Positions 29,996-63,640 of a stretch of 64,000 nucleotides of DNA are shown here, piece after piece. A program made the position numbers and the translations under genes. The notes beneath the pieces were generated by a model. The model saw nothing but the letters and a program-made list of their open reading frames with translations. It ran no database searches and had not been told where the DNA came from. Origin of the DNA: Ailurus styani (lineage: Eukaryota > Chordata > Mammalia > Carnivora > Ailuridae); the NCBI GenBank assembly GCA_002007465.1, contig LNAC01001227.1:248-64247 (forward strand). Direction: 5' to 3'. Each line of letters starts with the position of its first letter. The first letter of the stretch is position 1.

Positions 29996-30049
29996 TTTCA
30001 AAATTTTATTTGTTTGAGAGGGACAGCAGAGTGAGCAAGAGAGCAGAGT

Positions 30050-30098
<49 letters not shown>

Positions 30099-41295: not shown

Positions 41296-41371
41296 ATGGG
41301 AGTCAGGATGACTTTGAATCTCCCTCTTCAGGGACTCTGTTTCTTCCTCAGCACCATGGTGGCTGCTCAAA
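41296..41371 (+). CDS. WC1: WC1-like gene, leader exon (signal peptide)
   Basis: A short open exon that starts at ATG 41296 (G at -3 and G at +4) or at the in-frame ATG 41308 (A at -3). It ends after one base of a codon at a consensus donor, GTGAGT, at 41372. The 25-residue peptide has a hydrophobic core and ends GLCFFLSTMVAAQ, with a V-A-A signal-peptidase-like site. From memory this closely resembles the end of the bovine WC1 leader (GLC..L..TMVGGQ). The phase-1 end fits the phase-1 start of the SRCR exon at 54,620, and joining them gives AAQ-I-TELRL, parallel to bovine GGQ-A-LELRL. A pyrimidine-rich AG lies just before GGA at 41332 (CTCCCTCTTCAG). The leader could therefore be split, with its first residues in an unidentified upstream exon and only 41332-41371 coding here. 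No cDNA was available to choose between the two models. Confidence 0.72.
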
Positions 41372-42949
41372 GTGAGTTTCCTGGGATCAACAGGAAGGGG
41401 TGAAGGGAAAGGTTTCTGGAGTGAGGGAGCCAAAGCCTCAGTGGAAACCATGTGTTTTTGACCAAAAAGGAACCACGCTGACTGAATACTGGTTCTTCTC
41501 CTAGGGGATGTCAACTGGTCATGGTGGCAGCTTTGGTAAGAAATGATATTGAACCCAGACTGAGATAAGTCAGTGACAGTCTGAGTCAATGTGTCCCATG
41601 TTTTCAGGGAGTGTTTGGTTTTTCCTGGTGGCTCCCTGTGTGTGGGAAGGACCATCGACCGACCTCAGCTATATCTTTGGGGTCCTTGCACACTGCATTT
41701 GTCCACTCTGCAGAGGACTATCTCATCAGGATTTCCATGTTTATGTGACTGTAGGCTCTGTGCTTGTATGTGGGTATGAGGGGGTGTGAGGAGTGTGTGT
41801 GGGCTGTCTGTGTGGGAGGAACAGGCCTGCTGAGAAGCAACTGAGTCGGTTGCTCTGTGAAGCCCACGGTGCCCACACCATTGGGAGTGCCATGTCCCGT
41901 ATGTACCCAGATCATAGATAATCTCACACCTGCCTCTCCTCTTTAGCACCTCTCCTTCAGTCCCACCGCCTTCTCTCTGCTTGACTGTGGTGTTTGCCCC
42001 GCACTGGATTCTGGGAGAGGCTTTGCCTCCTGGCCTCCCCTATTCCTACCAAGTGCCTGTCGCAGAGCAGAGGGACCTGCAGCCATGACAGGACGCTTCT
42101 TGTTAATAGAGATTAACTGATGCACAGCTTAGTTATATTAAGTCTCCTGAGTCCCTGCCCCAGTCCCTGTGAATCATTTCCTGACTTACTGGGATCCTGG
42201 ACTGGTGCTTTCTGAATTCTGGAGGGTACATTGTTTCTCTCGTGCATTCTTCTATCCCTCTCTGTAAGCTGGTTCCCATTGAGCTTTGGACTCAGAGGAC
42301 TTCGGGGTCAGGGATAGGGCTGCAAAAAACCCAGCCTTCAGCCTGGAGGAGGCAGCTCTTTCAGATTTGTGTGCCGGCCCAGGCTGAGACCACTTACATC
42401 TTTGACTGCTCTCAGTGTCATTGTCATCCTTCTAGAGCTAAGTCTCTGTCCCTCCCCGATTCTCCTTGGGAAACCGCATCCCTCCAAGTTTCTGTTCCTG
42501 GAGTGTTGGCCAGGTGCTAGTGACGATTCTTCTTTTGATGACTCTGAGGTGCAGATGGGGTTTTGGTCAATGAGGGCGAGAGACAACGAGTGTTCTCATA
42601 TAAGGCCCCCTCTTCTTACTAGGAAAACTATAGGAAATTTCTTCAGTAGTAACCTAAGTTGCAAGAACATTTCACCAAAGCAAGCATTCTTTTTATTTTC
42701 CTAGAACCAGCACCATTCAGTATAGCCTCCTAAAAATTTATTCTGTTTCATACAACATTGGCCTTGCTCTTTGTGAAACAATAGTCCTGGCCTTTCCAAG
42801 CATTTGATGATTTCTGTGTTGGGCACACACTACAGGAGTCTCCACTGTGAATTCCATGACGGGCATTGGCAAAAGAGTATCCTTTGAAACACAGTTTATG
42901 GCATTATACACAGAAACATAGATCCTCAAGGATTGGATAACTCAGTAGT

Positions 42950-43560
42950 TGTTAGTTTGTAAACTCTTTTCAAAAGTAACAATATATTTTGGACATCTTG
43001 TCATTCTTTTTTACACACTAAAAATGTTTTATGGTAGTATGGCAAACAAATGGACTATTTCAGGGTATTGTGGAAAATTTTAGTTGCTTCCAATTATTTC
43101 AATATATTGAAATGCAATATACTCACCTAATCACTTGCTTTGGTCATTTAGTTGTTTTCAGTGTTTTGACTTTTATGAAACATGTTGTTCTGAATTTCCT
43201 TTCATTTAAATGTAAATCATGGTTGTTTTTCTTAATAACATTCTAAAAGTGGAATTGCTGTTTTATAGGCTGTGAATTCCTTCAGAGCTTTTGATACATG
43301 AAGAGCCATTGTCTGCCAGAAATGTTTGCACTAAATTTTTATTCCCACCAACATTGTATGAGAGTGTTAGTTTCCATAGCTCCTCACCAACATTGGCTTT
43401 TTATTAAGTTTTAAAAACTGGGCCAGTTTAATAAACAAAAACCGGTATATATTAGCTAATTTAATCCTTCACTTGTGAATTACTTGCTAATGACGTCTGA
43501 TCTTTTAATCTTGGGGTATTTGTCATTTTTGTCATGATTTATATTGGCGCTCTTTATACT
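42950..43560 (-). mobile_element. ancient LINE-1 relic
   Basis: Minus-strand pattern: TTTTTATTCCCACCAACATTGTATGAGAGTGTTAG ... CTCCTCACCAACATTGGC. Confidence 0.75.
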
Positions 43561-43589
43561 ATTTCTACCACGATGATTGTGACTATGAT

Positions 43590-43790
43590 TATCGACACCA
43601 GACACCACATTCACTTCTGTGAACTCACGTGAGTGCAGAACAAACCTACAAGGCAAACGATGTTTTTATCTCAAAAAATAGATCAGAAAACTGAAGGAAA
43701 GTGAAGTTCAATCACGTGCTTAAGATGCGACAGGTTTAAGTAGTAGAGGCAGGGTTCGAACCCAGGCAACCAGGGTCCACAATCATTGTC
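43590..43790 (+). mobile_element. MIR-like ancient SINE
   Basis: AACTGAAGGAAAGTGAAG..CACGTGCTTAAGATGCGACAGG..GGCAGGGTTCGAACCCAGGCAACC matches the MIR core and 3' part. Confidence 0.85.
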
Positions 43791-44035
43791 CCTATTGAAT
43801 TTTCCCATTTACAGGCTGCAAATATTTCCCCCAGCTTATTTTCATTTTATTGTTCCTATGTTTTGGGGTGCAAGGAAAAGTCTAATGTTAATAGTCAAAT
43901 CTATAAAAATTTCCTCCCTGCCCCCACTTTCAGAGCCTTGTTAAGAAAGCTCTTCTCTGTTGCAACTTTAAATAGATTACTTCATCTTTATTCTAATAAT
44001 TCTGTGAATGTATTTAAGCATATGTCAGTGCTAGA

Positions 44036-44250
44036 GAGTGTTTGGGTGTCTCAGTCAGTTCAGGACCTGACTCTTGATTTTGGCTCAGGTCATGATCTCT
44101 GGGTCCTGGGACTGAGCCCGGAGTCAGGTTCTGTGTTCAGTATAGAGTCTATTTGAGATTCTCTCTCTTCCTCTCTCTCTGCCTTTCTCCCTGCTTGGCT
44201 GCTCACTCTTTCTAAATCCATCAATCAATCAATCTTTAAAAAACCTGAAA
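44036..44250 (+). mobile_element. CAN-SINE (older)
   Basis: GTTTGGGTGTCTCAGTCAG head, GTCATGATCTCTGGGTCCTGGGACTGAGCC, CT tract, ATCAATCAATCAATCTTTAAA tail. Confidence 0.92.
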
Positions 44251-44897
44251 AAATATATGTCAATACTAGTTAACTGCATAAGTTATTTTGCTGAATGATA
44301 TGAAGTGATATCTAACAGATTTTTATTCTTTCCAATGTTATTTCCTGAATTCTGTTTTTGTCTTTTGTCACTGATTGAATGCCACTTTAAAAACATGCTA
44401 AATCACACCATGGCCCTTCCATTATATCCTTTTTGGATCTATTTAGACTTTAACTCTGCAATTGTTTATTGAGTTTAAGGTGGGCTGGAGGGGTATTAAG
44501 TCGATATATCCCCTTTGCAGTGCATTAGGTGCGGAGGCCCTAGTGGGGATGAAGGAGGCATTCCCTGGCCTCTGAAGCTAACAGTCCAGAGAGGATGGGC
44601 ACCAAAATGAGAATTTATAATTTATAATAAACTCTGTTTTTCATAGTGGCTGCACCAATTTACATTCCCACCAACAATGCACAAGGGTTCTCCTTTCTCC
44701 ACATTCTCGCCAACATTTATTATCTCCTGTCTTTTTGATAATAACCATTCTGTGGTTTTCTCATTGTGGTTTTATTTGCATTTCCCTGATGTTTAGTGAT
44801 ATTGAGCACCTTTCATGTACTTGTTGGCCATTTGTATGCCTTCTTTCCAAAAAAGTCTATTCAAGTTTTTTGCCCATTTTTTAATTAAAAAAATTTT

Positions 44898-45060
44898 TTT
44901 TCGGGATGCCTGGATGATGCAGATGGTTAAGCATCTGTCTTGGCTCCGGTTGTTATCTGGGGGTCCTGGATTGGAAGGGGGGGATCCCTGCACAGTGGGG
45001 TGCCCTTGCTTATGTTCTCTCACTCTCTCTGTCAAACAAATAAATAAAATTTTTAAAAAA
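44898..45060 (+). mobile_element. CAN-SINE (degraded)
   Basis: GGGATGCCTGGATGATGCAGATGG head, GTCAAACAAATAAATAAAATTTTT tail. Confidence 0.88.
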
Positions 45061-45061
45061 T

Positions 45062-45250
45062 TTTCTAAGTTAAATTCTACGTAGCTAACATATAGTGTAA
45101 TATTGGTTTCAGGTATAGAACTTAGTGATTCATCACTTACATACAACACCCAGCACTCATCACATGTGCCTTCCTTAATGCTCATTTAGGTCATCCCCCA
45201 CCACCTCCCTCCAGCAACCCTCAGTTTGTTGTCTATAGTTAAGAGTCTCT
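45062..45250 (-). mobile_element. LINE-1 3'UTR fragment nested in older L1
   Basis: GTTAAATTCTACGTAGCTAACATATAGTGTAATATTGGTTTCAGG ... CAACCCTCAGTTTGTTGTCTATAGTTAAGAGTCTCTTATAG is a different, younger L1 3'UTR type on the minus strand. It is followed by a CT-rich tract to about 45,325. Confidence 0.82.
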
Positions 45251-46971
45251 TATAGTTTAATTAAATTAGATTATTTTCTTCCTTCCTTTCTTTCCTCTCT
45301 TTCTCTCTCTCTCCTCTCTTTTTCTGTTGATTTGTATGAGTTCCTTATATATTTTGGATATTAACCCCTTATCATATAGATGGCTTGCAAATATTTCCTC
45401 CCATTCCATATGTTCCCTTTCCACTTTGGTGACCATTTCTTTTGCTCTTCAGAAGATTTTTAGTTAAGCATATTCTTAGTTGTTTCTTTTTGTGTCTTTT
45501 GCTTGTGCTTTTGATGTCATATCTATAAAATCATTGTCAAGACCAATGTCAAGATTTCCCCATATATTTTCTTCTAGGAGTTTTATAGTTTCAGTTATTA
45601 CATTTAAATCTTTAGTCCCTTTTGAGTTAATTTCTGTGAGCAGTGTAAGGTAGTGGTCCACTTTCATTCTATGCATGTAAACATCCAGTTTTCCTAACAC
45701 TATTTATTGAAAAGACTATCCTTTCCCCTTTGAGTATCCTTGACTTTCTTGTCAAATATTAGTTGACCATATTGCATTGTTTTTTGTTTTAGGCTTTTGA
45801 TTCTTTTCCAAAGCCCATGTGTTTATTTTCATGCCAGTATCACAGTATAGCTTTGTAGTACAGTCTGAAAGTGATACCGTCCGCTTTGTTTGTTTTTCTC
45901 AAGATTGATTTGGCTGCTTAGTGTCTCTTGTGGTTCCATACAAATTTTAAGATTTTTTTCTCTTTCTCTGAAAAATGTGATTGGAATTGATAGAAATTGT
46001 ATTTAATCTATAGATGACTGTGGGTAGCATGGATATTTTAACAATATTAATTCTTCCAATCATGAACAAGTTATATCTTTCCATTTATTTGTGTCTTCTT
46101 CAATATTTTAAAATCAAAATCTTATAGTTTTCAATGTCCAGAACTTTCCCTCCTTGGTTAAGTTTATTCCAAAGAATTTTATTCTTTTGATGCTATTGTA
46201 AATGAGGTGGGTTTTTAAAATTTCTATTTCATATATTTCATTGCATATAGATACACAACTGATTTCTGTATGTTGATTTTATATCTGGCAACTTTACTGA
46301 ACTCATTGATTAGATAGCTTTTCAGTCAAGTCTTTAGGATTTTCTATATGTAAAGTCATCTGCAAATGGAGATAATATTATTTCTTCCTTTGTGCTTTGG
46401 ATCAGGTCTTTTACTCTCTGTCATTTCTTTTTCTTGCCTGATTGCTCTGGTTGGGACTTACTGTACTATGTGGAATAAAAGTGGTGAGAGTGGACATCTT
46501 TACTTGTTCCTGATCTTAGAGGAAAAACTTTCAACCTTTCACCATTGAGTATGATATTAAGTGGGCTTCTTATCTATGGCTTATATTATGTTGAGGTGTG
46601 TTTCTTCTATACCCAATTTTTGGAGAGATTTGATCATATAAGCATGTTGAGTTTTGCCACCTTTTCTAATCTATTGAGATGATCATCTGATTTTTATTTT
46701 TCATCTTATATATGTGATGTTTTATATTTGTTGACTTGATGCATTGAACCATTCTTGCATCTCAGTGATAAATACCACTTCATCATGGTATATGATCTTT
46801 TTAATGTACTGTTCAATTCAGTTTGTTAATATTTTGCTGCAAATTTCTATATCTATGTTCACTGGGGACATTGGCCTCTGCATTTCTTTTTTGTAGTGTA
46901 CTAATGTAGTTTCAGTGTCATGTTTATGTTGATACTGTAAAATGATTTTGGGAGTGTCCTTTCCCTTCAGT

Positions 46972-47165
46972 TTTTAAAAAAGATTTTATTTTTTTTTATT
47001 TGAGAGAGAGATAGTGGAGAAGGGCAGCGGGGAAGCGAGAAGGAGAAAGAATCTGAAGCAGACTCCACACTGAGCATTGAGCCTGATTCAGGGCTTAATC
47101 CCCTAAATGTGAGATCATGACCTGATCTGAAACTAAGTCAGATGCTCAACTGACTGAGCCATCCT
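46972..47165 (-). mobile_element. CAN-SINE (older)
   Basis: AAAAAAGATTTTATTTTTTTTTATTTGAGAGAG to CTGAGCCATCC. Confidence 0.9.
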
Positions 47166-48659
47166 TTCCTCTTCAATATTATGGAAGAGTTTAAGAAGGA
47201 TTAATGTTAATTTTTCTTTTAAAGTTTTGTCAATTTTGTTTATCTTTTCAAAATACCAGCTCTTACTTTGGTTAATCTTTTCTCTTGTTTGTCTGGTTTG
47301 TATTTCATTTATTTCTGCTCTGATCTTCGTTATTTCCTTCCGTCTGATGCTAACTTTGGCTTGGTTTGGCTTAGTTATTTGAGGTATAAGGTTAGGTTTT
47401 CAATTTTAGATCTTTAGTTTTTTGTAATGTAAGTGTTGATTGCCATAAACTTCTCTCTTAGAACTGTTTTGGTATTCCTTAGGTTTTAATATGTTGTCTT
47501 TCCATTTTTATTTGTTTCAAGATACTTTTTTGAAATCCCTTTGAGTTTTTCTTTGACTCACTGGTTGTTTAAGTGTTTTGTTTAATGTCCACATTATTGC
47601 CAATTTTCCAGCTTTCTTCCTTTTATTGATTTTTAGTTTCATACCATTGTGATTGGAAGAGATAGTTGTTATGGTGTTAGTCTTCTTAAATTTGTTGAGC
47701 TGTTTTGTTACCTGTCATGAGATTTATTCTCGAGAATTTTCCATGTGTGCTTGGTAAGAATATGTTCTGCTTCTTTTGGATGGAATTCTCTGTTTATGTT
47801 TCTTAGGTTCATTTGGTTTAAAGTATGGTTCAAGTCCAATGTTTCCTCCTTGATTTTTTGCATGGATGGTCCACCCACTGTTGGAATGGTATTTTAAAGA
47901 ATCCTACTTACTATTTTATTGTTTTCTAGTTCTGTCTCTGGAACTGTTAGTGTTTACTTAATATATTTAGTGCTCCAATGTTGGCAGCATATATTTACAA
48001 TTGTTATATCCTCTGGATGAATTGACCACTTAATCATTAAATAATGGCCTTATTTTTCTCTTTTACAGCTTTTGACTGAAGTCTATTTTGTCTTTTACAA
48101 GTATGGTTATCCCTACTTTCTTTTGGTTTCCATTTCCATGGACTATCTCTTTCAATCCTTTCACTTTCATTCTGGGTGTACTTAAAGCTGAGGTGAGTAT
48201 CTTGTAGGCAGCATATATCTAGTTTTTTTGTTTTTATCCTTTCAGCTACTCTACGTCTTTTGATTGGAGAGTGCAGTCCATTTACATTTAGAGAAATTAT
48301 TAATCTGTAGGCCTTTAGTAATGCCATCTTATTGTTTTCTGGCTGTTGTATAGTTTTCTTATTCCTTTCTTCCTCTTGCTGCCTTCCTTTGTAAATTGAT
48401 GATTTTTCATAGTGGTATGATTTGACTCTTATCTTTATCTTTTGTGAATCTACTATAGGTTTTCTCTCTGTGGTTACCATGAGCTTACATAAAACACCTT
48501 AATATAAAACAGTGTACTTTACACTGGTAATAATTTAACTTTTATCTCATATAAAACTCTACCCTTTTACACTTCCTCTTTTATGTTTTTGATATTACAA
48601 TTTACATCATTTTATATTGTACATCCATTAACAAATTGTTTTAGCTAAAGTTTTTTGTT

Positions 48660-48862
48660 TTTGTTTTTTTTTAGAGACAAAGAGAGATAGCGCATGATCA
48701 TGAGTGGGGATGGGGCTGAGGGAGAGGGAGAGAGAGAATCTTAAGCAGGCTCCACACCCAGCACAGAGCCTGATGTTGGGCTTGACCTCACAACCCTGAG
48801 ATCATGACCTGAACTAAAATCAGGAGTCAGACATTTAGCCAACTGAGCCACCCAGGCATCCC
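48660..48862 (-). mobile_element. CAN-SINE (older)
   Basis: TTTTTTTTTAGAGACAAAGAGAG to GCCACCCAGGCATCCC. Confidence 0.9.
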
Positions 48863-49704
48863 TTAACTGTAGTTATTTTTTATACTTATATCCTTTAAGT
48901 TTTATGCTGGAGTTAAGTAGTTAATACAGCACCATATTATAGTGTTTGAGTGTTCTGAATCTGATTATGTTCTTTACCAGTGTGTTATATATTTTCTTAT
49001 GTTCTCATGTTACTAATTAAAGTTTTTCCATTTCAGCTTGCTTTTGTAATACAGGTCTAGTGGTGATGAGTTTTCTTGGCTTCTATTTGTTAACAAAATT
49101 CTTTATCTTTCCATCATTTCTGAAGGACAACATGTTGGGTAAAGCATTCTTGATTGGAAGTTTTTTTATTTTTAGCACTTTGAATGTATCGTATTATACT
49201 CTCCTGGCTTGCAATACCTCTGCTAAGAAATCTACTGATTGTCTTATGAGGATTTCCTTGTATTAAAATTTTTTTCTCTTGATGCCTTTAAAACTCTCTC
49301 CTTATGTTTGATTTTAGGCAGTTTTATCATAGTTTGGCTTGGATGAGATGATTTTGGATTGAAATTTTGCAATGACCTATTAGCTTTGTGAACTTGGATG
49401 TCTAAATCTCTTCCCCACTTTAAGAACTTCTTAGGCATTATTTCTTTAAATAAGGTTTCTACCCCATTCTCTCTCCCTTCTTCTGTGGCTCTGGTGATTC
49501 TTTTGATGGTGTCCTCTAAATTTGATAGGCTTTCTTCATGCCTTTTTCTCTTTTTCTTTTGTTCATCGGATTGGCTGATTTCAATTAATTTGTCGTTTAG
49601 CTCACTGATTCTTTCTTCTGTTTTGTTAAGACTGCTGTGGAAGGTCTTTATTGAATTCTTCATTTCAGTCATTGTATTCTTCAGCTCCAAAATGTCTGTT
49701 TTGT

Positions 49705-49924
49705 TCTTTTTTTTTTTTTTTTTTTTTAAAGATTTTTATTTATTTATTTGACACAGAGAGAGAGATTACAAGTCGGCAGAGAGGCAGGCAGAGAGAGAGG
49801 AGAGAGGAGGAAGCAGGCTCCCCGCTGAGCAGAGAGCCCGATGCGGGCCTCGATCCCAGGACCCTGGGATCATGACCTGAGCCGAAGGCAGCGGCTTTAA
49901 CCCACTGAGCCACCCAGGCGCCCT
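49705..49924 (-). mobile_element. CAN-SINE (young)
   Basis: Long T tail, TTGACACAGAGAGAGAGATTACAAG to GCCACCCAGGCGCCC. TGTTTTGTTCTTTTT flanks both sides. Confidence 0.96.
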
Positions 49925-50084
49925 GTTTTGTTCTTTTTTATGTTTTCTATTTCTTTGTTGATATTCTCATTTTGTTTGTGTATTGTTTTCCTAATATCAC
50001 TATATTGTTTATATTTGTTTCTTGTAGTTCTTTGAGCATCTTTAGAACATTTATTTTGCATCTTTTTTTGGGTAATTTCTTTTT

Positions 50085-50278
50085 TTTCCTTTTAAAGATT
50101 TTATTTATTTATTTGACAGAGACACAGCAAGAGAGGGAACACAAGCAGGGGGAGTGGGAGAGGGAGAAGCAGGCTTCCCACTGAGCAGGGAGCCCGATGT
50201 GGGGCTCGATCCCAGGATTCTGGGATCATGATTGGAGCCGAAGGCAGACACCTAATGACTGAGCCATCCAAGCACCCT
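50085..50278 (-). mobile_element. CAN-SINE
   Basis: TTTTAAAGATTTTATTTATTTATTTGACAGAGACAC to GAGCCATCCAAGCACCC. Confidence 0.94.
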
Positions 50279-50965
50279 TTGTTGGATAATTTATGTATCT
50301 CCATTTCTCTGGGACCATGTAGTGGAGGTTTACTCTATTCCTTTGGTGGAATCATTTTGCGTTGATTCTTCTTGATTCCTGTAGCTCTGCATAGGTGTCT
50401 GTGCATTTGTAGGAGCAGTAACCTCTTCCAGCTTTTATAGACTGGCTTTTGTAGTGGAAGATCTTCACCTGTGAGTGAGGGCACACTGTAGCTTGCTGTG
50501 ACCTGAGTGTAGTGAGGCAGGGTGCCAAGTGCAGGGGTGTGTGGCAGCACTGGATCTGGGGAACATGATGTCTCTTCAGCTCAGATTGATGAGGTCCACA
50601 GCTCTGACAACTAGGGACCTTGATAAGCACTGGAGGGGGTCTTCAGTGGCTGCAAACACTGTTGGGGTCCTCAGCAGTGACTCTAGGGCTTATGGCTAGG
50701 GACCAGGGTAGGCAGAAGTAGGACTGGAAGGGAATTCTTTCTAGCTAGGAAGTTCCTTCTTTGTACTGAGCAATACTGGCTTGAGGGATGGGATGATGCT
50801 GGCAAAACACACACAGTCTTCATGTTGCTAAAATTTCTCAAGTGGACTCCCAAGCTTTCCCAGAGTGCCTTTGTTCATGGAAAGCTATCCAATTACTGAT
50901 CATTTTGTGGGATGGTGGGATGGAGTCCAGTGTCTCCTACTTTGCCATTTTGGTGATGTCATTTA

Positions 50966-52127
50966 AATAGAGTATTTTTGAGTATAGAAATTTAGATTGG
51001 CAATTTGTTTCTCTTTTGGATCATCTAAGACTTCTCTACTCTATACTAGCATCTCTTGTTGTTTTGGGGACTTAAATATTCATATAGATGTTGCTCAGTT
51101 GGAAGTGATATGTACCAATTCTATCTTAAAATTTTTTTGTCAGTTTTCTGCTGTTTCTCATCATTTTAACAAGAATAATTAATAATAGAGTAATAATATA
51201 TATTACTACATAATAATATAGTATATTATATAGTAATAATATAGTAATAAATAACCCAAATTTCAGAAGATTAAATAAACTGAATTAATTCTCTTCAGTT
51301 TGGCAGGGCCTCTGTTTATGATCATTCTACTTCTTAAGTTTTTGAATGCCTCCCTCTCTTATGCCACTACTTTAACACGAGGTTGTAGGATTTACTGTGG
51401 TAGATGCATGAGTGGCTTTTATATATTTCTATCTGGAAGTGCTACACGTCATTTGTTCTCAAACTTCATTCAATAAAGCAGATCATGAAGTCATGCTTAA
51501 CTTCAAAGAGGCAAGGAAGGATTGATATTTCTGTGTGCCCTGAGAGGGTGAAATATTGCTGAAAACTGTCGTATCTACCATATTCATTATGTGTCTACAA
51601 ATAAAATTTTTTTTATATGGCTTGCTTGAGTTTTGTTGGGCTTATTCACTTTAAGGATTAGTGTCTTTCATGAGTTCTGGAAATACTGCTTCTGCTCAAT
51701 TCTCTTTCTTTCTGTGTGTGTGTCTTTCTGTCTCCCACTCTTCCTTCCCATATTTTGATTTAATTTACTATAAACCTTCTTGTTCCACTTTATGTCTCTG
51801 ATCCTCTTTTCTGTATTTTTTATTCTTTCATTTCTCTGTGCAGCATTCTAGATAATTTCTTCTAACTTATTGTTCACTTCAATAATTCTTTTTATCTGAA
51901 TTTAATCTGATGAAAAAATTCTATTTTCAGCAGAGAGATAAATTCAACTAACCAAACTTACTGCTACTAAGAAAGTCTCCTGGAACTCTTCAGAGCAATG
52001 GAATCATCTCTTTGCTTTTGTCACCAACTAGACACAAGCTACCTGCAGGCAAGAACATTGTCTAATTATTTTCTGTGTTTACAGCATTAAACACAGGACC
52101 TGCCTCTTCAATCCATTATTTTATTAT
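50966..52127. other. no gene; AT tract and an L2-like tail
   Basis: AT-rich run at 51,180-51,250. 52,030-52,110 resembles an L2 tail (CTACCTGCAGGCAAGAACATTGTCT). The remainder is not recognised. Confidence 0.4.
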
Positions 52128-52317
52128 TATTATTATTATTTTAAAAGATTTTATTTATTTGAGGAGGGGGAGGGGCAGAGGGAGAGAGAGACTCTTAAGC
52201 AGGCTCCACACCCAGTACACAGCCCAATGTGGGGCTTGATCTCACGACCCTGACATCATGACCTGAGCTGAAATCAAGAGTCAGACGCTCAACTGACAGA
52301 ACCACCTATGTGTCCCT
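52128..52317 (-). mobile_element. CAN-SINE (older)
   Basis: ATTATTATTTTAAAAGATTTTATTTATTTGAGG to ACCACCTATGTGTCCC. Confidence 0.92.
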
Positions 52318-52535
52318 TGATGATTTCATTATTGTTATTATTATTTTGATGATTTTACTATTAATAGTAGTTTCTTATGCACTTTTAGGATCTCATTTCA
52401 ATCTTTTACTCTTATCTCAATGTTAGACTTTAACAAAACTGAGTAAACTTGACAGGATGTCTCTCTTCTTCCACTGTACCCTTTACCTTTTTCCCATTTA
52501 TCTTTATTTTCTTCCTAGAATGGACCTCCCCAGGT

Positions 52536-52932
52536 GCTATGGATTGAATTGTGTCCCTTCAAAAGTCCTTTGTTGAAGCCCTAGCTCCCATTGTGACTGT
52601 TTTCAGAGATAGGGTCTTTTAGGAGATAATAAAGGTTAAATGAAATCATAAGGGTGGGAACCTAATCCAGTAGGATTGGTAGCCTTATAAGAGGAGAAAG
52701 AGTCATCTCTCTTCATTTCTCCCCGTGTACACATACTGAGAAAAGCCACATGAGCACACAATGAAACGGTAGTGGCTTACAAGCCAAGAGAAGAGGTCTC
52801 AGAATGAAAACTGACTTGACATCGCCTTGATCTTGGACTTTCCAGGCTTCAGAACTGTGATAAATAAGTTTATATTTAAGCCAATTCCACTTAGTCCATG
52901 GTATTTTTCTTATGGCAGCCTGCCTGAACAGA
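52536..52932 (+). mobile_element. MLT1/MaLR-like LTR
   Basis: TGCTATGGATTGAATTGTGTCCC ... AACCTAATCCAGTAGG ... CCTTGATCTTGGACTTTCCAGGCTTCAGAACTGTGA ... TTATGGCAGCCTGCCTGAACAGAGTA reads as a complete solo LTR of the mammalian MaLR type. Confidence 0.8.
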
Positions 52933-53384
52933 GTAGCACACTAGGATTCTTTCCAAGTTCAGTATCTTCTCAGATGTTTCCCTTCTTGATGTGTCACATC
53001 TGACTTCCAGAATGGAAGCATATGGAGCCAGGTATAGACCTGAGTGGTGTGAGTGGGTACCCCAGGAACCCAGTTTTGATTATATTAAAAGAAAAAAAAT
53101 TCTCATTTTGCTAACCCCAATGCAAAGCTATGGAGATGACTCTAGAACTTTAGGAAATCCACTTTGCTGTTCTGGACAGGAGAGCTGGAACCTATTCCAC
53201 TGGATAAGATGCTGATATGACAAGAAAGAGGTGGTTTAGGTCTCAGTTCCAGGTTGGACCAACATCACATAATTGGCCATTTAGGAAGAAGTCTTATTTG
53301 GATGAAGCAATTAAGCCACTCATATATATCTCTAACTTGTCTAACTTGCTGTTTTCTGACTCTGGAGGGAACGCCTAAATTAAT

Positions 53385-54178
53385 AATACATTGCTGTACA
53401 GCAAATTACTTCCAAACTCAGCTGCTTAAAACAGCAACTATCTACTATCTCACAGTTTTGGGGGGCCAGGAATCTGGGCATAGCTTCTCTGGGTCCTCTG
53501 ATTCCTGATATCTCACAAGGTTGCAATTATCTTAAGGTTCAAATGGGATTGAATACCATCCAAGCTTATTTACCTGGTTGTTGGCAGCGTTCAGGCCCTG
53601 GTGGACTGTTTAACTAAGAACCTCAGTTCCTTGCTGGCTCTTGACTAGAGGCCTCAGGTTCTTGTCATGTGGATTTCTCCACATGGAGCCACAGGATGGC
53701 AGCTGGCTTCACTGGAGCAAGCAAATGAGAGAGCAAGACTTGTCAACAAGAGAAACTAGAGTTGTCCTGAAACCTATTTTTTTTGCCCATTTTTAAAAAA
53801 TCAACATATAATGTATTATTTGCTTCATGGGTACAGGTCTGTGAATCATCAGTCTTACACAATTCACAGCACTCGCCATAGCACATACCCTCCCCAAATG
53901 TCCATCACCCAGCCACCCCAGACCTCCCACCCCACCCCCAGAAACCCTCAGTTTGTTTCCTGATATTAAGAGTCTCTTATGGTTTGTCTCTCTCTCTGGT
54001 TTCATCTTATTGAAACCTGATTTTTAAAGTGACATTGCATCACTTTTACCAAATTCCACTGTTAGATGAATGTTACTGGGTTTAGGCCACATTCACGTGC
54101 GAGGAAGATTTCCTAAGAATGTGAATATCAGGAAGCAGGAATAATCAGGACATTTTTGAGGCTGCTTACCACAGTTAT
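53385..54178 (+). mobile_element. ancient dispersed repeat, interrupted, family name uncertain
   Basis: GCTTAAAACAGCAACTATCTACTATCTCACAG ... CAGGAATCTGGGCATAGCTTC ... CATGTGGATTTCTCCACATGG, then resuming after an L1 insertion with GGAGGCTGCTTACCACAG-like sequence. This is a common mammalian dispersed element, but I do not recall its name with certainty. Confidence 0.6.
53785..54010 (-). mobile_element. LINE-1 3'UTR fragment
   Basis: TTTGCTTCATGGGTACAGGTCTGTGAATCATCAG ... CTCAGTTTGTTTCCTGATATTAAGAGTCTCTTATGG. Flanks share TGAAACCTATTTTT / TGAAACCTGATTTTT. Confidence 0.92.
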
Positions 54179-54619
54179 CTCTTCCAAAGCTAGATAAGAG
54201 TAGTCCCTGTGGGACGGAGAAGGAATGGGACTATTCCTCCACTGATTTCATGGGTCATGAACTATAAGTGAGATGGGGGAATTTGGGCCTCTACCAGCCT
54301 TATGCATATCTTCTGAGAAGGCAGCAGCTAGAATCATCTGAAGGCCTGTCCTTAATGGTATGCATGGAGCTGAGTCTTATCTGCTTGTGAGAAGTAACTG
54401 TGTGAATCTCTTCTCAACTCCGTGTTCAGTGATGCCACAGGTTTAGCTTAAAATTGACAAGAGTGGGAATATTGATACCACAGAAATCAACAAATGCTAT
54501 ACATGAGAGGTTTTTCTTTCCTCCCCCAGAGAGCTCATTTTTTAAGACTTACCAACATATCACTAAGATCCTAAAATCTCTCCTGTGTCCTGTGTTCTGT
54601 GTCTGTGTCTTTCTTACAG

Positions 54620-54940
54620 TTACGGAGCTGAGGCTGGTGAATGGGAACCACCACTGTGAGGGGAGAGTAGAAGTGAAATACAAAGGAAAATGGGGCACGG
54701 TGTTTGGTTACTATTGGAACTTGATGAATGCAGATGTGGTGTGCAGACAGTTGAAATGTGGACGTGCTATTGATGCTCCCATAGGGGCTCATTTTGGACC
54801 AGGGTTTGGGCCCATTTGGCTCAGAAGAACTGTTTGTGAAGGGACAGAATCAACTCTCAATGGCTGTCGTCGTCCTCCTATAATAGACTACAATAAACTA
54901 GGCTTCTCCCATAATTGGGACGCTGGAGTAGTCTGCTCAG
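54620..54940 (+). CDS. WC1: WC1-like gene, SRCR domain a exon (N-terminal domain)
   Basis: A 321-nt exon with acceptor TTCTTACAG at 54619 and donor GTAAGG at 54941, phase 1 at both ends as in SRCR-family genes. It encodes one group B-type SRCR domain, running from TELRLVNG to DAGVVCSG. Visible motifs are CEGRVEVKYKGKWGTV, DVVCRQLKCG, FGPGFGPIWL and CEGTES. It has six cysteines. The usual second cysteine (WGTVCDD is WGTVFGY here) and seventh cysteine (expected near GFSHNWDAG) are both absent, so exactly one disulfide partner pair is missing. As I recall it, bovine WC1 domain a lacks the same pair. In WC1 this membrane-distal domain helps define receptor subtype and ligand binding on gamma-delta T cells. 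No stop codon or frameshift is present. CD163L1, the nearest relative, starts with a fully eight-cysteine domain and fits less well. Confidence 0.88.
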
Positions 54941-55734
54941 GTAAGGCCTGTCTGATCTATCGAGGAGATGCCCAGTAGGAATAGCCCTGGTTTCATTCCC
55001 AGAATAACTAACAGAATCACATACTTGGGTGAAGACCCCAGTCACACAGTGACTCCTAGAGTATTAGGTGCTCAAGGAAGCATAAAGACTTGCTTGGCTC
55101 TAGACAGTGAAGGATCTAAACCTCTGGATCACTGGGCCCTTCAGATCTCTGTGGTGTGTCATAAAAGGTGGGAAGGTGGGGGTCAAGTGTTTCACACAGG
55201 TGCAACTGCTGGGTTGTCCCTGTATGAAATAATTTTCATCATGATAGCTGTTTTGTTTTCTTTCATGAGATGGTCAGTCAGATGCAGCCACAAGAGGGGA
55301 CATGGGAAAGATTCAGGGAAACCAAGTTATCATACTTATAAGTCCTAGAGAGATGGAGAGATGGAGACATGGAGTCACTTAATGTTTCAAGGGGGCCACA
55401 TGGAAGAAGTGCCAAGGGAACAGGCTTAACCAAGCAGTTAGAGAGCCAAGAAAGAGAGTAAAGACCTGTGGGTAAATGACCATATTGGGGGTCAAGGGGG
55501 AGTACTCAAGCAAAGGGCATAAGGGATTTCATTGATAAATTTGAATGTTACTAGGTCATAGTCAGGAGAGGGAAAGAAGGGGGACTGGTGGCAGATGTCA
55601 GTCTTATCTCATTGGTACACCTGGTCACCTGGGTAGTGTGATCACAGCCTGTTTGTGAAGACATTGCTTTAAAATTGAAAAAAAAAAGACATTGAGGCAG
55701 TAGGAAAATATGAAAAAATTGTTTTAATTATTTT

Positions 55735-55895
55735 ATTTATTTTTAAAAGATTTTATTTATTAGAGAGAGAGAGATTATGAGCAGTGGGGAGGGGCAGAGG
55801 GAGAGGAAGAAGCAGACTCCCTGCTGAGTAGGAAACCTGACCTGGGGCTCAGTCCCAGGACTTTGGGATCATGATCTGAGCCAAGGAATACAATA
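55735..55895 (-). mobile_element. CAN-SINE, head truncated
   Basis: TTTTTAAAAGATTTTATTTATTAGAGAGAGAG to ATCATGATCTGAGCCAAGG; the final head bases are absent. Confidence 0.88.
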
Positions 55896-56131
55896 GCTGG
55901 AGCAAAGGAAATACTAAGGGCAATGAGGCCAAGAGAACCTGAGGGGGCACATAAGAAGTGCTCAGTGCCATCTAAGTGTATTCGGCCTGTGCCAAAGTGG
56001 AGGCAGTAAAGATGGCAATGAAACTAGAGTGTGAATGGGTGGGTGTCTGTATTTGCCAAAGATGTTTTCAGTAGTTACCACAATGATTGATGAAAAGTCC
56101 ATCACTAATATCATCAGAACAGTTTGACCTG

Positions 56132-56310
56132 GGGCACCTGGGTGGCTCAGTCAGTTAAGTGTCTGCCTTCAGCTCAGGTCATGATCCCAGGGTCCTGGGA
56201 TTAAGCCCTGATTGGACTCCCTGCTCAGTGAGGAGCCTGCTTCTCCTCTCCCTCTGCCCCTCCCCCTGCTTGTGCCCTCTGTCTGTCAAATAAAATCCTT
56301 TAAAAAAAAC
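56132..56310 (+). mobile_element. CAN-SINE
   Basis: GGGGCACCTGGGTGGCTCAGTCAG head, GTCAAATAAAATCCTTTAAAAAAAACC tail. Confidence 0.95.
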
Positions 56311-56404
56311 CAAACAAACCTTTTGATTTGAGGAAGATGTTATCAGATATCACAATGAATTCCCTGAGGTAGGAAGTTGGGTCTTAAAAAAGGGCCACCC
56401 CAAG

Positions 56405-56613
56405 GGGCACCTGGGTGGCTCAGTTGTTAAGCGTCTGCCTTTGGTTCAGGTCATGATCCCAGAGTCCTGGGATCAAGCCCAGCATTGAGCCCTGCATCGG
56501 ACTCCTTGCTCAGCGGGAAGCCTGCTTCTCCCTCTCTCCCACTCCCCTTGCTTGTGTTCCCTCTCTCGCCGTGTCTTTCTCTGTAAAATAAATAATATCT
56601 TAAAAAAAAAAGG
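56405..56613 (+). mobile_element. CAN-SINE
   Basis: GGGGCACCTGGGTGGCTCAGTTG head, AAATAAATAATATCTTAAAA tail. GGCCACCCC / GGCCATCCC flanks. Confidence 0.94.
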
Positions 56614-56814
56614 CCATCCCGTCTGATGGGGTGGTGGGACAGGTGGAGCCCCAAGAATATTTGACTAGGTCTATAGCAACCTAACAGTATGATCCTACAG
56701 CCAGTCAGCATTTTTATGATCTGCATGAAGAAGATCACTGGAAAAATGATCTTTTCAAGTTGTAACTTCAGTAGATCTTTGATGATACTAATTCAGGTCC
56801 CTAAAAACACAATT

Positions 56815-57000
56815 ATTTTCTTTTTTGAGAGTTATTCTATTGAGGTATGATTGACCATGCCAAAACCTGTATGTATTTAATGTATACAACTTGATGAATT
56901 TAGAGGTAAGTATACATCTGTGAAATCATCAGGATTATCCGTGCTATAGAGCTATCTATCATCTCAGAAGTCTCCTCCCATCCTCTTTATTATTATTTAA
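56815..57000 (-). mobile_element. old LINE-1 3'UTR-like fragment
   Basis: TTATTCTATTGAGGTATGATTGACC ... GTATACAACTTGATGAATTTAG has the shape of an old L1 tail. Confidence 0.6.
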
Positions 57001-57989
57001 AATATAATTATTTTCAAGGGGCATTTGAGTTGGGATTTTTTAAAGAAAACTTGTTTTCTGACATTTCAGGTAGCATTCCTTATTGTCATGATGTCTTAAT
57101 CATGGGTATCAACTGAAGATAAACTTGTGGAAACACTACAGGGACCTGCCTTATTTTGATAAATCAATAGCTGAGTAAAAATGGAGTGTGTGATGTTGGA
57201 ACTTCTATTATAATCTTAAGAAAATTGATGCTTTTGATTAATTCCAATGAAAGTACATGTAAAGATAAAGAGTCTGAGAGTGGTATGGCATCTAAACTTT
57301 GGTTTTGTTTTTTACTCCCTGATTACCATTACTGTTGTTTTAACTTAAATTCTCATATTTTAGTGAACTGTATCGGTTTTCATTGACCAATTTCTTCATC
57401 ATCAGTTTCTACTCTCCAGTCTGTTTCTATATTTTCCAGAACATGTTTTAATGAGTAAAGGGAAGTCAAAGTGGTGGTGATGTAGCATTGATAAGAATAG
57501 GAAACCACGCCTTTTGCAAAAATTTAAGTTGAATTCTTGGAATTCCTTTCTTTCAATTTTAGGAAAGGGGTATGAAAGAGAAATTTCAGCTTCTAGTAGA
57601 TTGTTAGAAATACTGTGTTTAGCAGAAACCCAGAGGTAGAAAGAATGATCTGTGAAGAGTATAGAGGAGCTTGTTTGAAATAAAGGGGGGATTTCAGAGG
57701 CTTCTGGGAAAAAGATTGGGGAGGGGCTTCACAAATTGTGAAGGGCTACAGCACTGAGGTGCAAAATGGCAAGAGGATGAAGATGCAGTTAACTTCAGGA
57801 GGGGAGGCTGGGGACCGAAGATCCATGTTAATTCATATATTGACTACAGCTACTGTTTTAGACTGCTTGTTCTCATTTCTTCTCTCTCTTCCTCTATGTT
57901 AATGAGGGAGTTGTTTTTGAGCTCCACAGGTATTTGAAGCTTGCAATTTTCTTTGTGGGAAGTTTTTATAATATGAGTTCTATTTCTTT

Positions 57990-58206
57990 TCTTTTTCTTT
58001 TTTTTTAAAGATTTTATTTATTTATTTGAGAGAGAGAATGAGAGAGTGTGAGTGCGCAGGAGCTAGGGGGTAAGGTCATAGGGAGAGGGAGAAGAAAGCT
58101 CCCTTCCCAGCAAGGAACCCAACAAGGTGCTTGATTCCAGGACCCCTGGACCACGACCTGAGCCCTGAGCTGAAGATGTTTAACCAACTGAGCCACCTAG
58201 GCACCC
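57990..58206 (-). mobile_element. CAN-SINE (older)
   Basis: TTTTTTTTTAAAGATTTTATTTATTTATTTGAGAG to GCCACCTAGGCACCC. TAATATGAGTTCTATTTCTTT on both sides. Confidence 0.95.
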
Positions 58207-58721
58207 TAATATAATATGAGTTCTATTTCTTTAACAAATATAGGAACACTTAGATTTTTCCATTTATTTTTGTATTAGTTTTTGATAAATTGTGTTTTTC
58301 AAGTAATTAGTTTTCAAGGACTCATCCTATTATAAATAAAATTTTCAAATTAGGACAAAATTTGTTCATATCTTATATCTTTTACCTATTGATAGGACCC
58401 ATAATGATAACCCCCTTTTCATCCCTGATATTGTTAATTTGTGTATTTTCTCATTTTTTTCTTGATCAGGTCTACTAGAAGATTATCAGTTTTACTATTC
58501 TTTTTTGGATATGATTTGGATATGATTTACTGTTATTTTTGTAGATTTTTGAGTTGGAATCTTAGATAATTTATATTTAACTTTTCTTTCATATTCTAAT
58601 GTATGCACCAAGGAAGTGTCAAGGCTCTAGATTTTCTTCTAAGCACTGATTTAGCTGTATCCCACTAATTTTGATATTACATGATTTCTTTTGTATTTTA
58701 TCATCATGAAATGTTTCTTCT

Positions 58722-58921
58722 TTATTTTTTTTAAAGATTTATTTATTTATTTATTTGACAGACATAGCTTACAAGTAGGCAGAGAGGCAGGCAGAGAGAG
58801 AGAGGAGAAAGCAGGCTCCCTGCTGAGTAGGGAGCCTGAAGCGGGACTTGATCCCAGGACCCTGAGATCATGACCTGAGCCGAAGGCAGAGGCCTTAACC
58901 CACTGAGCCACCCAGGCGCCC
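58722..58921 (-). mobile_element. CAN-SINE (young)
   Basis: TTTTTTTTAAAGATTTATTTATTTATTTATTTGACAGAC to GCCACCCAGGCGCCCC. Confidence 0.95.
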
Positions 58922-59059
58922 CTGTTTCTTATTTTTGAATATATTCCTTGTCCTATGGTCTTAGTTTGTCTGATATTTAACATAGATAACAATAGTTTTC
59001 TTAGATTATTGCTTGCATGATTTATCTTTTCTGACACTTTTATTATGTTTCTGTGGGTT

Positions 59060-59253
59060 TTTTTTACTTTAATTTTATTTTGGAGAGAGAGAGGGAGGGG
59101 GGAGGGGTAGAGGGAGAGGGGGAGAAAATCTTAAGCAGGTTCCACTGTCAGCATGGAGTTGGATGCGGGGCTTATTCTCACAACCCTGAGATCATGACCT
59201 GTGCTGAAATCATGAGTCAGATGCTTAACTGACTGAGGCACCCAGGCGCCCCT
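59060..59253 (-). mobile_element. CAN-SINE (older)
   Basis: TTTTTTTTACTTTAATTTTATTTTGGAGAGAG to GGCACCCAGGCGCCCC. TGTTTCTGTG on both sides. Confidence 0.93.
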
Positions 59254-60287
59254 GTTTCTGTGTTTATATTTAATGTATATATGTTTTTGTGGACATCATA
59301 TTGTGTGCCTTACTCTTTTCCCCTAGTTATAATATTGAGATATAATTGAAGTGGTGTCTTATTTCTATTCAGTATGATTATCTTGCTTTTATTTGGAGTA
59401 TTTAAATGATTTCAACTTAATGTAATTGTTGATATGCTTGGGTTTAAGTCTACTAACTTACAGTTGTCTTATGTATTCTTTATTCCTATTTTAATCTTTG
59501 AGTATTTTTAGTATTCTATTTTATTTACTCTATTGGTTTATTAGATGTATTGCTTTGCTTAGAGTTTACCATAATGTTGAAATTACTACTCTGTAATCCC
59601 ATTTTTACCTTCAAATGATATTATATCACCATAAATAATATAAGACCTTACACGGTATACTTCCATTCCTTCTTCTTGTCATTTGTGCTATTGTTGTCAT
59701 ACATTTTACTTATAAATGTATTATAAATCTTATAACGCATTGCTGTTACATTTGCCTTAAATATTCTATTATTTTAAAAATGAGACAAAGTTTTTTATAT
59801 TAACCCAAAGATTTATCATTTATGGTAGTCTTTACAGCTTTGGGTAGATTGACGTTTTCATTTGTTACTATTTTCCTTTAGCTTGAACTTTCTGTAACAG
59901 TTTAGTGTAATGCAGTTCTGGTGGCCTCAAATTCTATCAATTTTTATTTATAGGAAAATGTTTTTATTTTCATTTAGTTTTGAAATACATTTTCAAAGGT
60001 GATTTTTCTATCTTTTCTCTCTTTGTGCCTCAGAGAGAAAGCTTCTACTGTTTTGTTTTTAATTTCATAATTCTTTTGTTCTATAGTGTTTAATATTTTA
60101 AGTTAATCTAGATAATTTTTCATTCTAGTTACTGTATTAAAATTTTTAGTTTTAGAAGTTCCATTTGGGTTTTCCTAGTTTTTAAAAAGCTGCTTTATGT
60201 TTCATTAAGCACATTTATATAAATGGTTTAAAGACTTTGTCAGCTAATTCAGTCATCTAATTTCTGCGTATTTTTAATGCTTAGTCT

Positions 60288-60496
60288 TTTATTTTTTTTT
60301 TAAAGATTTTGTTTATTTATTTGACAGAGAGAGAGAGAGAGAGACAGTGAGAGACGGAACAAGCAGGGGCAGAGGGAGAAGGAGAAGTGGGCTTCCTGCC
60401 AAACAGGGAGCCCGATGTGGGGCTTGATCCCAGGACCCTGTGATCATGACCTGAATAGAAGGCAGATGCTTAACGACTGAGCCACCCAGTCGCCCC
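60288..60496 (-). mobile_element. CAN-SINE
   Basis: TTTTTTTTTTAAAGATTTTGTTTATTTATTTGACAGAG to GCCACCCAGTCGCCCC. TTAATGCTTAGTCTTTTA / TTAATGCTTGCTCTTTTA flanks. Confidence 0.95.
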
Positions 60497-60514
60497 TTAA
60501 TGCTTGCTCTTTTA

Positions 60515-60605
60515 AAAATTAAAAAATTTATGAAGAAAATGAAAGAATATACAAATAAATGGAAAAGTTATCTTGTGTTCATGGATTGGAAGGTGGCTAT
60601 TCTTA
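60515..60605 (+). mobile_element. small LINE-1 ORF2 scrap
   Basis: AAGAATATACAAATAAATGGAAAAGTTATCTTGTGTTCATGGATTGGAAG is L1 ORF2 sense sequence, opposite to the neighbouring L1. Confidence 0.75.
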
Positions 60606-61341
60606 TATCCTAGGGTTTCAAGAGAGATGGTTTGAACCACACCCTTCCTCTCCTGACTCTCTGAGCTTTCTTAACATCCAGACTCATGTTCTTTCCCACT
60701 TAGGTCACCTAAGAAGTTCATGGAATATTTTGGCATAAAAAATTATCAGATAGGTAATATTTGGAATCACAACTATGGATTAGTTATAATGTCTGTATTT
60801 CTAATATCCAGCCATCAGTCTGTCTGTAGGCTGTCATGCATTCGTGGATATAGATCTCCTGGTTTTCCCTATCCTCAGTCATTTGAGGGTTGGCTCCTGG
60901 GGAAGAAAGCTGACCAGAATTTGAGCCTCACAGGTCTCAGGATGACTTTATAACCTTATCTGGCTGATAGAGCTCTACCCTGTCATAGCCCATGTCCCTC
61001 TGGGTTGGTTCTGTTCTTTATACCTCTACAGTCAAGTTTGAATGCCTACATAATACGTGGTTTCCTTGGGCTTGGGTGAGGAATTAGCTTCTCTAACCAA
61101 CGCCAAAATATATTTTCCTAGTATTCAGCTACTCCAAATAGTCTGTCTTCAGAAACTGACTTGTGGAGGTCCCATTCCGATACCAACTGTTAAGTCTTCT
61201 CCCCCTTCCCAATGCTGGAATAAGAAACACTTTTATCTATGACATGTAATGGTCATATACCATTGTCCATGACATGCTACTTCTAATCCCCAAACCAGAA
61301 TCATGAACACTTACTTGGTTTAGTTTTCTTTTTTCTTTTAG

Positions 61342-61644
61342 GATTTGTGCGTCTAGCTGGAGGAGATGGACCCTGCTTAGGGAGGGTAGAAGTGCATTCT
61401 GGAAAAGACTGGCTTCCACTGTCCTACGGGAACTTTACATTACTCACTGCCCAGGTCATCTGTGCAGAGTTGGGGTGTGGCAAAGCTGTGTCTTTTCTGG
61501 AGGATGTGTCCTTCAGAGAGTCAGATAGAGTCTGGCCTAAAGAATACCAGTGTAAGGGTCACGAACCTGAGCTCTGGTTTTGCCACAGTGAGTCCTGTCC
61601 AGGAGATGCTTGCTACCATGGGGCTGTTCAAGTTTTCTGTTCAG
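61342..61644 (+). CDS. WC1: WC1-like gene, SRCR domain b exon
   Basis: A 303-nt exon with a long pyrimidine tract and TTTTAG acceptor at 61341 and donor GTGAGA at 61645, phase 1/1. It encodes an SRCR domain starting G-FVRLAGGDGPC and ending VQVFCSG. Recognisable segments are GRVEVHSGKDW, GNFTLLTAQVICAELGCGKAVS, FRESD and CKGHEPELWFC. The second SRCR cysteine is replaced (WLPLSYG), and an extra cysteine sits in the SESCPGDAC segment, keeping eight cysteines in total. I recall both peculiarities in bovine WC1 domain b. One N-glycosylation sequon, NFT, is present. It lies 6.4 kb downstream of domain a and only 93 bp upstream of the next exon. The reading frame is intact. Confidence 0.9.
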
Positions 61645-61737
61645 GTGAGATGCAGAGTGGGACTTCAACCTCACCACATACTCTCTTGGGGTAAAAAAGA
61701 CATGAGATTTGGCTGAAATCTTGTCTTTTCCTGCTAG
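61645..61737 (+). other. WC1: WC1-like gene, 93-bp intron between SRCR b and c
   Basis: A very short intron with donor GTGAGA, a pyrimidine-rich TTGTCTTTTCCTGC tract and acceptor TAG. In-frame stops within it (for example TAA in GGGGTAAAAAAG) confirm that it must be removed. Confidence 0.85.
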
Positions 61738-62055
61738 TGTACACAGAAGTCCGGCTCACGAAAAATGGCATCTCTCAGTGTGAGGGACAAGTGGAGATGC
61801 ATATTTCTGGACAGTGGAAAATGCTCTGCGCCTCCCACTGGAATATGGCCAATGCCAATGTTGTTTGTCAACAGCTGGGCTGTGGAGTTGCCATCTCTAC
61901 TCCAGAAGGAGCATACTTTGTGGAAGGAGATGATGAAATTTGGAGAGCTCGATTTCACTGCTCAGGGGCTGAGTCTTTTTTGTGGAATTGCCATGTGACT
62001 GCCCTGGGCATTCCTGGTTGTACCCATAGAAACACAGCCTCAGTGATCTGCTCAG
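61738..62055 (+). CDS. WC1: WC1-like gene, SRCR domain c exon
   Basis: A 318-nt exon with acceptor CCTGCTAG at 61737 and donor GTGAGA at 62056, phase 1/1. The domain begins V-YTEVRLTKNG and ends NTASVICSG. Motifs are QCEGQVEM, SGQWKMLCASHW, NVVCQQLGCGVAIS, FHCSGAESFLWNC and VTALG.PGC. All eight group B cysteines are present. The sequence closely follows bovine WC1 domain c as I remember it (CEGQVEMNISG, LCASHW, GVAISTP). CD163L1 has a homologous domain, but it diverges more. The next expected exon (domain d, RLRLVDGGGPC-like) is not seen in the remaining 1.9 kb, so the gene continues beyond the window. Confidence 0.9.
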
Positions 62056-62454
62056 GTGAGAGAGAGGGAAGGGCTAACTGGTACTCAGAATGCTCCTTAG
62101 GTGAAATGTCCCTAAGAGCAGAGAGTGTGGAAAAGTTATTTTAAAAATGAGATAATCCATGATAAAATACGGTTCTTTTCATTGTTCTTTTGCCTTTCAG
62201 TTCAAGGCAAGGAATGTTAAGAGGAATATCTTTTAAAATTAACACTATTATTTAAATATATCTGAGTATTATTTGAAGAGAAAGTATGTAAGTAGTTAAG
62301 TATGTAATTCAAAGAATCATAATAACATGAATACTGTGTAACCCTTACCCAGATTGACAAAGAGATCATTAGCAGCACCCTAGTAGCCACATTCATACCC
62401 TACCGGTCACTATGCCCACCCTTCTGTCTGAAGAAAACCTGTCTCTTCACTTCT

Positions 62455-62658
62455 TTTTTTTTTTTTTTTTAAAGATTTTATTTATTTATTTCACAGAGGG
62501 AGAGAGATCACAAGGAGGCAGAGGCAAGCAGAGAGAGAGGGGGAAGCAGGCTCCCCGCCGAGCAGGGAGCCCGATGCGGGCCTCGATCTCAGGACCCTGA
62601 GATCATGACCTGAGCCGAAAGCAGAGGCTTTTAACCCACTGAGCCACCCAGGCGCCCT
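62455..62658 (-). mobile_element. CAN-SINE in the intron after SRCR c
   Basis: Long T tail, TTTCACAGAGGGAGAGAGATCACAAG to GCCACCCAGGCGCCC. CCTGTCTCTTCACTTCT on both sides. Confidence 0.96.
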
Positions 62659-62689
62659 GTCTCTTCACTTCTATTCTATAGAATAGTTT

Positions 62690-63550: not shown

Positions 63551-63559
63551 GCTTGATGA

Positions 63560-63640
63560 TCTAGTCCAAGATGGTGACATAAGAGACTCCTGAGCTTACC
63601 ACCTCCTACAAACACACTTTTCCAACTCTTAAAGTGAGGT
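63560..63640 (+). mobile_element. LINE-1 5'UTR-like fragment
   Basis: GTCCAAGATGGTGACATAAGAGACTCCTGAGCTTACCACCTCC looks like the start of a carnivore L1 5'UTR in the plus orientation. Confidence 0.6.

Follow-up and report, generated by a model that had tools for sequence, protein, structure and literature searches.

Do the SRCR exons in a 64,000-nucleotide stretch of the Ailurus styani genome (contig LNAC01001227.1, positions 248 to 64,247 of the forward strand; hereafter the window) belong to WC1, the gamma-delta T-cell co-receptor, or to one of its relatives? A first-pass annotation, made from the sequence alone, had proposed an apparently intact WC1 gene here and had implied that finding one in a carnivore would be surprising. 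Our analysis supports, with high confidence, the identification of the 5' half of a carnivore WC1 gene (antigen WC1.1) in which the leader and the exons for domains a, b, and c are intact, join into one open reading frame, and cluster with the WC1 already annotated in carnivores.

The gene lies on the plus strand. The leader exon (41296..41371) encodes the signal peptide MGVRMTLNLPLQGLCFFLSTMVAAQ and ends in phase 1, its borders as first read having been confirmed on the spliced frame. Intron 1 (41372..54619; 13,248 bases; GTGAGT...TTACAG) separates it from domain a (54620..54940), a WC1-type first domain with six cysteines that is placed by frame, tblastn, and the a tree. Domain a is without the second and seventh of the usual eight cysteines (positions assigned by eye). 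Intron 2 (54941..61341; 6,401 bases; GTAAGG...TTTTAG) leads to domain b (61342..61644), which carries the motif FVRLAGGDGPC and eight cysteines, and intron 3 (61645..61737; 93 bases; GTGAGA...CTGCTAG) to domain c (61738..62055), with the motif CEGQVEM and again eight cysteines, both placed by frame and tblastn. Domain c is the last coding part in the window, where the start of intron 4 occupies 62056..64000; a linker exon, domains d, e, and d', a membrane span, and a tail are expected past its end. The borders of the three complete introns were read directly: each runs from GT to AG and each is in phase 1 (3 of 3 for both). Spliced together, the leader, a, b, and c give 339 codons with zero stops, although frame length is not diagnostic alone: the window has 6,786 segments running from stop to stop, and 51 of them reach at least 107 codons.

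The Pfam SRCR model matched the window protein in three stretches with 238.6 bits, far above chance, and the SRCR fold of the domains is clear from this match and from solved CD163 chains. Panda WC1 (P0121) aligned by tblastn to the leader (88% over 25 residues, E 2e-7), to domain a (E 2e-43), and to domains b and c together (E 4e-112). The leader is 92% identical to that of fur seal WC1.1 over 25 residues, and identity to the harbour seal is 72% for domain a and 91% for domain b; domain c is 91% identical to both stoat (P0136) and panda. The four exons in WC1 order, the phase 1 junctions with good splice sites and no stops, and the six-cysteine first domain followed by the FVRLAGGDGPC and CEGQVEM domains were all borne out as the first-pass annotation had described them. 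A tblastn search with nine SRCR proteins brought up no further SRCR exon anywhere in the 64 kb, intron 1 included (best non-overlapping match, E 0.076). Between 62056 and 64000, tblastn with nine full-length proteins gave nothing better than E 7.6 except overhangs of the c-exon match, and a linker resembling NQTQVLPQC was absent by eye in three frames.

Homologues were drawn from a search over a length range admitting 11-domain forms (best 120 of 4,149 rows) and from another over a shorter range (best 120 of 3,628 rows). Near the top of the former stood rows labelled antigen WC1.1 or WC1.1-like from hippopotamus, cattle, and sheep, most at 65-68% identity. The best 120 of the latter included carnivore WC1 proteins at 69-83% identity, the exceptions (61%) being two Mustela isoforms (P0226 and P0234) that by eye are without domain c. 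Panda P0121, badger P0123, fur seal P0124, European mink P0125, and harbour seal P0126 are 82-83% identical to the window protein over 93-100% of its 339 residues and share with it the a-b-c order, the six-cysteine domain a, and, where the model has one, the leader; none of the carnivore proteins in the best 120 rises above 83%, and the mismatch lies mostly in domain a. At least 17 carnivore species have a WC1-type protein among these 120. The label antigen WC1.1 or WC1.1-like is carried by 14 of them (panda, badger, fur seal, European mink, harbour seal, monk seal, golden jackal, fox, stoat, sea otter, dingo, cheetah, meerkat, and black-footed ferret), and American mink, lynx, and lion (3 of 17) are labelled only as SRCR domain-containing. 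Three proteins at only 40-43% identity, two from American black bear (P0194 and P0211) and one from cat (P0212), were judged to be other SRCR proteins and left out of this count, P0194 and P0212 by eye and P0211 by identity alone.

WC1 in a carnivore is already known, and because the gene is annotated across Carnivora and described in the literature, its presence here is an ordinary find and the surprise implied earlier falls away. A 2010 paper named cattle, sheep, and pigs as the species in which WC1 had been identified so far, gave chicken and platypus as having orthologues, and noted a canine protein whose tail clustered with WC1 (PMC2906472); WC1 is elsewhere described as general among mammals (PMC12235456). 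In a blood atlas of canine leishmaniosis, a preprint, LOC611565 (antigen WC1.1-like) is listed with RHEX and GATA3 for the gamma-delta T-cell cluster (PMC12724653).

Phylogenies were built by domain. The b+c tree held 36 rows, 27 of them WC1-type (the window included) and nine CD163; four of 39 representatives (cattle P0011, guinea pig, tenrec, and sea turtle) were omitted, since in these the best b and c domains do not lie next to each other. WC1-type rows and CD163 were split at 100/100. The carnivores of the WC1 part comprised feliforms, canids, and arctoids, and the window grouped with mink, badger, and sea otter (83/81) inside an arctoid set of eight rows (99/94, starred). The window also fell with mustelids in the b tree (37 rows, one human CD163L1 domain included; 93/86) and with badger and mink in the a tree (46 rows; 86/71). 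There its domain a lay within a 20-row type-a clade (100/99) made up of first domains from carnivores, bat, armadillo, cattle, and sheep, plus one of two pig domains. A type-a N-terminal SRCR is described as diagnostic of WC1 (PMC2906472), and the window has this domain, a short leader followed by the order a-b-c, and b and c domains that cluster with WC1 rather than CD163 (b+c, 100/100; b, 100/99). Judged by this one gene, the animal is a caniform carnivore, probably a musteloid near but outside the sampled mustelids. Bovine WC1 (P0175, WC1-8 protein precursor, with six SRCR stretches; P0011, WC1 / BoWC1.1 precursor, with 11) is 67-68% identical and shares the leader, the a-b-c order, and a first domain in the same type-a clade; it differs in forming a multigene family of 16 genes (PMC12235456) and in having 11-domain forms.

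CD163L1, CD163, and SCART1 (CD163c-alpha) have the b-c domain pair in common with WC1, human CD163 aligns across the entire a-b-c stretch, and in the a tree no clade lies closer to type a than the CD163 first domain (93/93). That the window gene is one of these three is nevertheless extremely improbable. CD163 (M130 in human), with b and c domains homologous to those of the window, is rejected by its place on the opposite side of the 100/100 split in the b+c tree. CD163L1 (M160), compared by b only, is rejected on one domain: human SRCR8, the letters of which were matched to chain 6k0o_A, falls on the CD163 side of the b tree (100/99) and the window b on the WC1 side, with the qualification that this only CD163L1 row is flagged by the tree program as a long branch of unsure placement. 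SCART1 resembles WC1 in its b-c and d-e-d' cassettes and tail tyrosine motif; it begins m-l-b-c and has n after c (PMC2906472), whereas the window has one SRCR exon before b, of type a, and the region after c lies past the window end. SCART1 is rejected by exon order only: the search results held no sequence that could be identified as SCART1, and the best 120 matches of each homologue search include no row of that name. The assignment to WC1 rather than CD163L1 proposed at first pass agrees with the a, b, and b+c trees, all of which place the window inside Carnivora WC1, apart from CD163 and from CD163L1 SRCR8.

A WC1 pseudogene with its damage beyond the window is very unlikely. In its favor, the 3' half lies past the window, the terminal branch of the window in the b+c tree measures 0.08 against 0.010-0.029 for mink, badger, and three seals, and its domain a differs at 27-46% of sites from 13 other carnivores. 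The frame, however, shows no stop or frameshift in 339 codons, every splice site is canonical, and the sea otter branch is also longer (0.056). Constraint was assessed against those 13 carnivore WC1 proteins, one per species from the shorter-range search, a set that omitted American mink, stoat, dingo, black-footed ferret, and further isoforms. All 22 cysteines invariant among the 13 are kept in the window and only 4 of 167 otherwise invariant sites are changed, so that the sequence fits a gene under constraint; leaving out each of the 13 species in turn gave from 0 (of 163) to 12 (of 175) changed sites, the highest value belonging to meerkat. Somewhat less improbable, though still unlikely, is a diverged second WC1 paralogue in place of the main orthologue. 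Cattle, with their 16 WC1 genes (PMC12235456), offer the example, and because lion and lynx models have very different a domains on near-identical remainders, some carnivores may possess additional copies or a exons. Set against this, the b+c tree matches the carnivore species order (with one sequence sampled per species), and the nine-protein tblastn search of the 64 kb gave no further SRCR exon.

The preferred reading, a carnivore WC1 gene, carries expectations for the part past the window. Panda P0121 has six SRCR stretches, and its downstream half holds the d, e, and d' domains together with a membrane span and the motif YEEI. We infer from such relatives that the 3' part encodes the same elements, including a tail with the YEEI tyrosine motif, presumably in the six-domain form a-b-c-d-e-d' seen in carnivore relatives. 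The receptor would be displayed on gamma-delta T cells, where its SRCR domains would bind microbial or host ligands, domain a being the likeliest to set specificity, and a phosphorylated tail tyrosine would boost T-cell-receptor signalling, as in cattle (PMC8356672 and PMC2906472). A role like that of cattle WC1 is likely because of orthology and the tail motif in relatives.

Expression in a relative has been reported for LOC611565: in a study of obesity in dogs, RNA-seq of blood mononuclear cells found it 4.4-fold up in obese animals, and RT-PCR found no difference (PMC8251507). The reverse primer printed there has 1 mismatch in 23 to the b exon of the window; for the forward primer, the best site in the spliced frame starts at 54816 in the a exon, the fast-changing domain, with 8 mismatches in 23. 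The distance from primer to primer is 248 bases spliced, equal to the printed dog amplicon, and 6,649 unspliced, and the codons at the forward site read WLAYVVC (by eye), as in domain a of jackal and dingo. Because the forward primer has only 6-7 mismatches at three other places in the window, the site is not special by mismatches and counts only jointly with the amplicon length, the reverse primer, and the WLAYVVC reading. The primer table may contain errors, because one pair is printed in it for two different genes (PMC8251507).

Several points weigh against the identification as set out above. The window ends 1,945 bases past the c exon and covers the 5' half only; the earlier claim of an apparently intact copy therefore holds for the leader, a, b, and c and is restricted to that half. 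The YEEI motif is present in 12 of the 13 carnivore proteins, the sea otter model being without it, and dingo models P0142 and P0144 are without it in their last 260 residues. Support for the grouping with mustelids is only moderate: the window row was marked as a long branch in the a tree, and its position within arctoids was left unsettled when a was analysed with fewer rows (19). Ligand binding and signalling by a carnivore WC1, though likely, are carried over from cattle, and for expression on gamma-delta T cells the link is indirect, through the marker status of LOC611565 in dog.

Domain a stands out in its rate of change. Among the 13 carnivores the mean share of differing sites is 32% in a and 17, 11, 9, 12, and 8% in b, c, d, e, and d', a divergence 1.8 to 4.3 times that of the other five SRCR domains; variability is also seen in the linker (18%) and the tail (21%, from 66 of 78 pairs). 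Measured by per-site entropy, a exceeds every other SRCR domain (Mann-Whitney p at most 9.1e-5 for the 13 species, 5.1e-4 without lion, and 7.2e-4 in nine caniforms), p values that serve as a rough guide, since the sites of one gene share their history. In cattle, domain 1 is likewise reported as the most variable (PMC2681482). The pattern may reflect diversifying selection on a. Between the models of lion and lynx, 36 of 107 sites differ in a and 7 of 515 in b to d', a difference that a misannotated or duplicated a exon in either species would explain as well as selection would.

Carnivores may have just one WC1 gene, and it is possible, though tentative, that their diversity of recognition between species arises through fast change of a alone, perhaps including exchange of whole a exons. 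If so, carnivore WC1 would be a pathogen-driven sensor with diversifying selection on the same domain that is most variable among the cattle paralogues. The window provides exact WC1 exon borders for one more species and points to a as the fastest-changing SRCR domain, which would be the part to examine in work on ligand specificity and on antibodies in dogs, ferrets, and mink. Lion models P0156 and P0157, set beside lynx P0150 and cheetah P0152, carry a divergent a with seven cysteines on a near-identical protein, which may stem from duplication or exchange of the a exon or from an error in the gene model. A single clade of lion, lynx, and cheetah in the a tree was not rejected (p 0.22).

The matches listed also include WC1-type proteins from rodents (grey and red squirrel, marmot, ground squirrels, guinea pig, degu, and beaver) and strepsirrhine primates (galago, mouse lemur, and Prolemur simus), against a published generalisation. 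The b+c domains of grey squirrel, galago, and mouse lemur fall inside the eutherian WC1 clade (100/100). First domains with six cysteines occur in galago (P0186), Prolemur (P0209), and Urocitellus (P0215); those of grey squirrel (P0034) and mouse lemur (P0220), with 10 and 8 cysteines, therefore lie outside the usual a pattern. Przewalski horse P0179 and pig P0223, both annotated as WC1, have a first SRCR with eight cysteines that falls among d-type domains, outside the type-a clade, and the other pig protein, P0162, carries type a. The starting residues of P0129 (American mink, labelled Neovison vison) match by eye the translated intron of the window immediately ahead of the a exon, at about 54500-54620, and this N-terminus is probably wrong.

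Elsewhere in the window, an Rfam search of the whole 64 kb returned nothing reaching gathering scores. By eye, several similar L1 copies lie to the left of the WC1 gene. A 1,249-codon open frame on the minus strand at 6186-9932 reads by eye as LINE-1 ORF2 and, with an ORF1-like frame containing a run of N at 10080-10892, makes up a long L1 copy. Two near-identical 80-codon frames on the plus strand (5962-6201 and 20362-20601) stand beside L1-like frames, also by eye. A TTTC tandem array of about 59 copies occupies 29765-29999, with an AG repeat beside it at 30038-30096.

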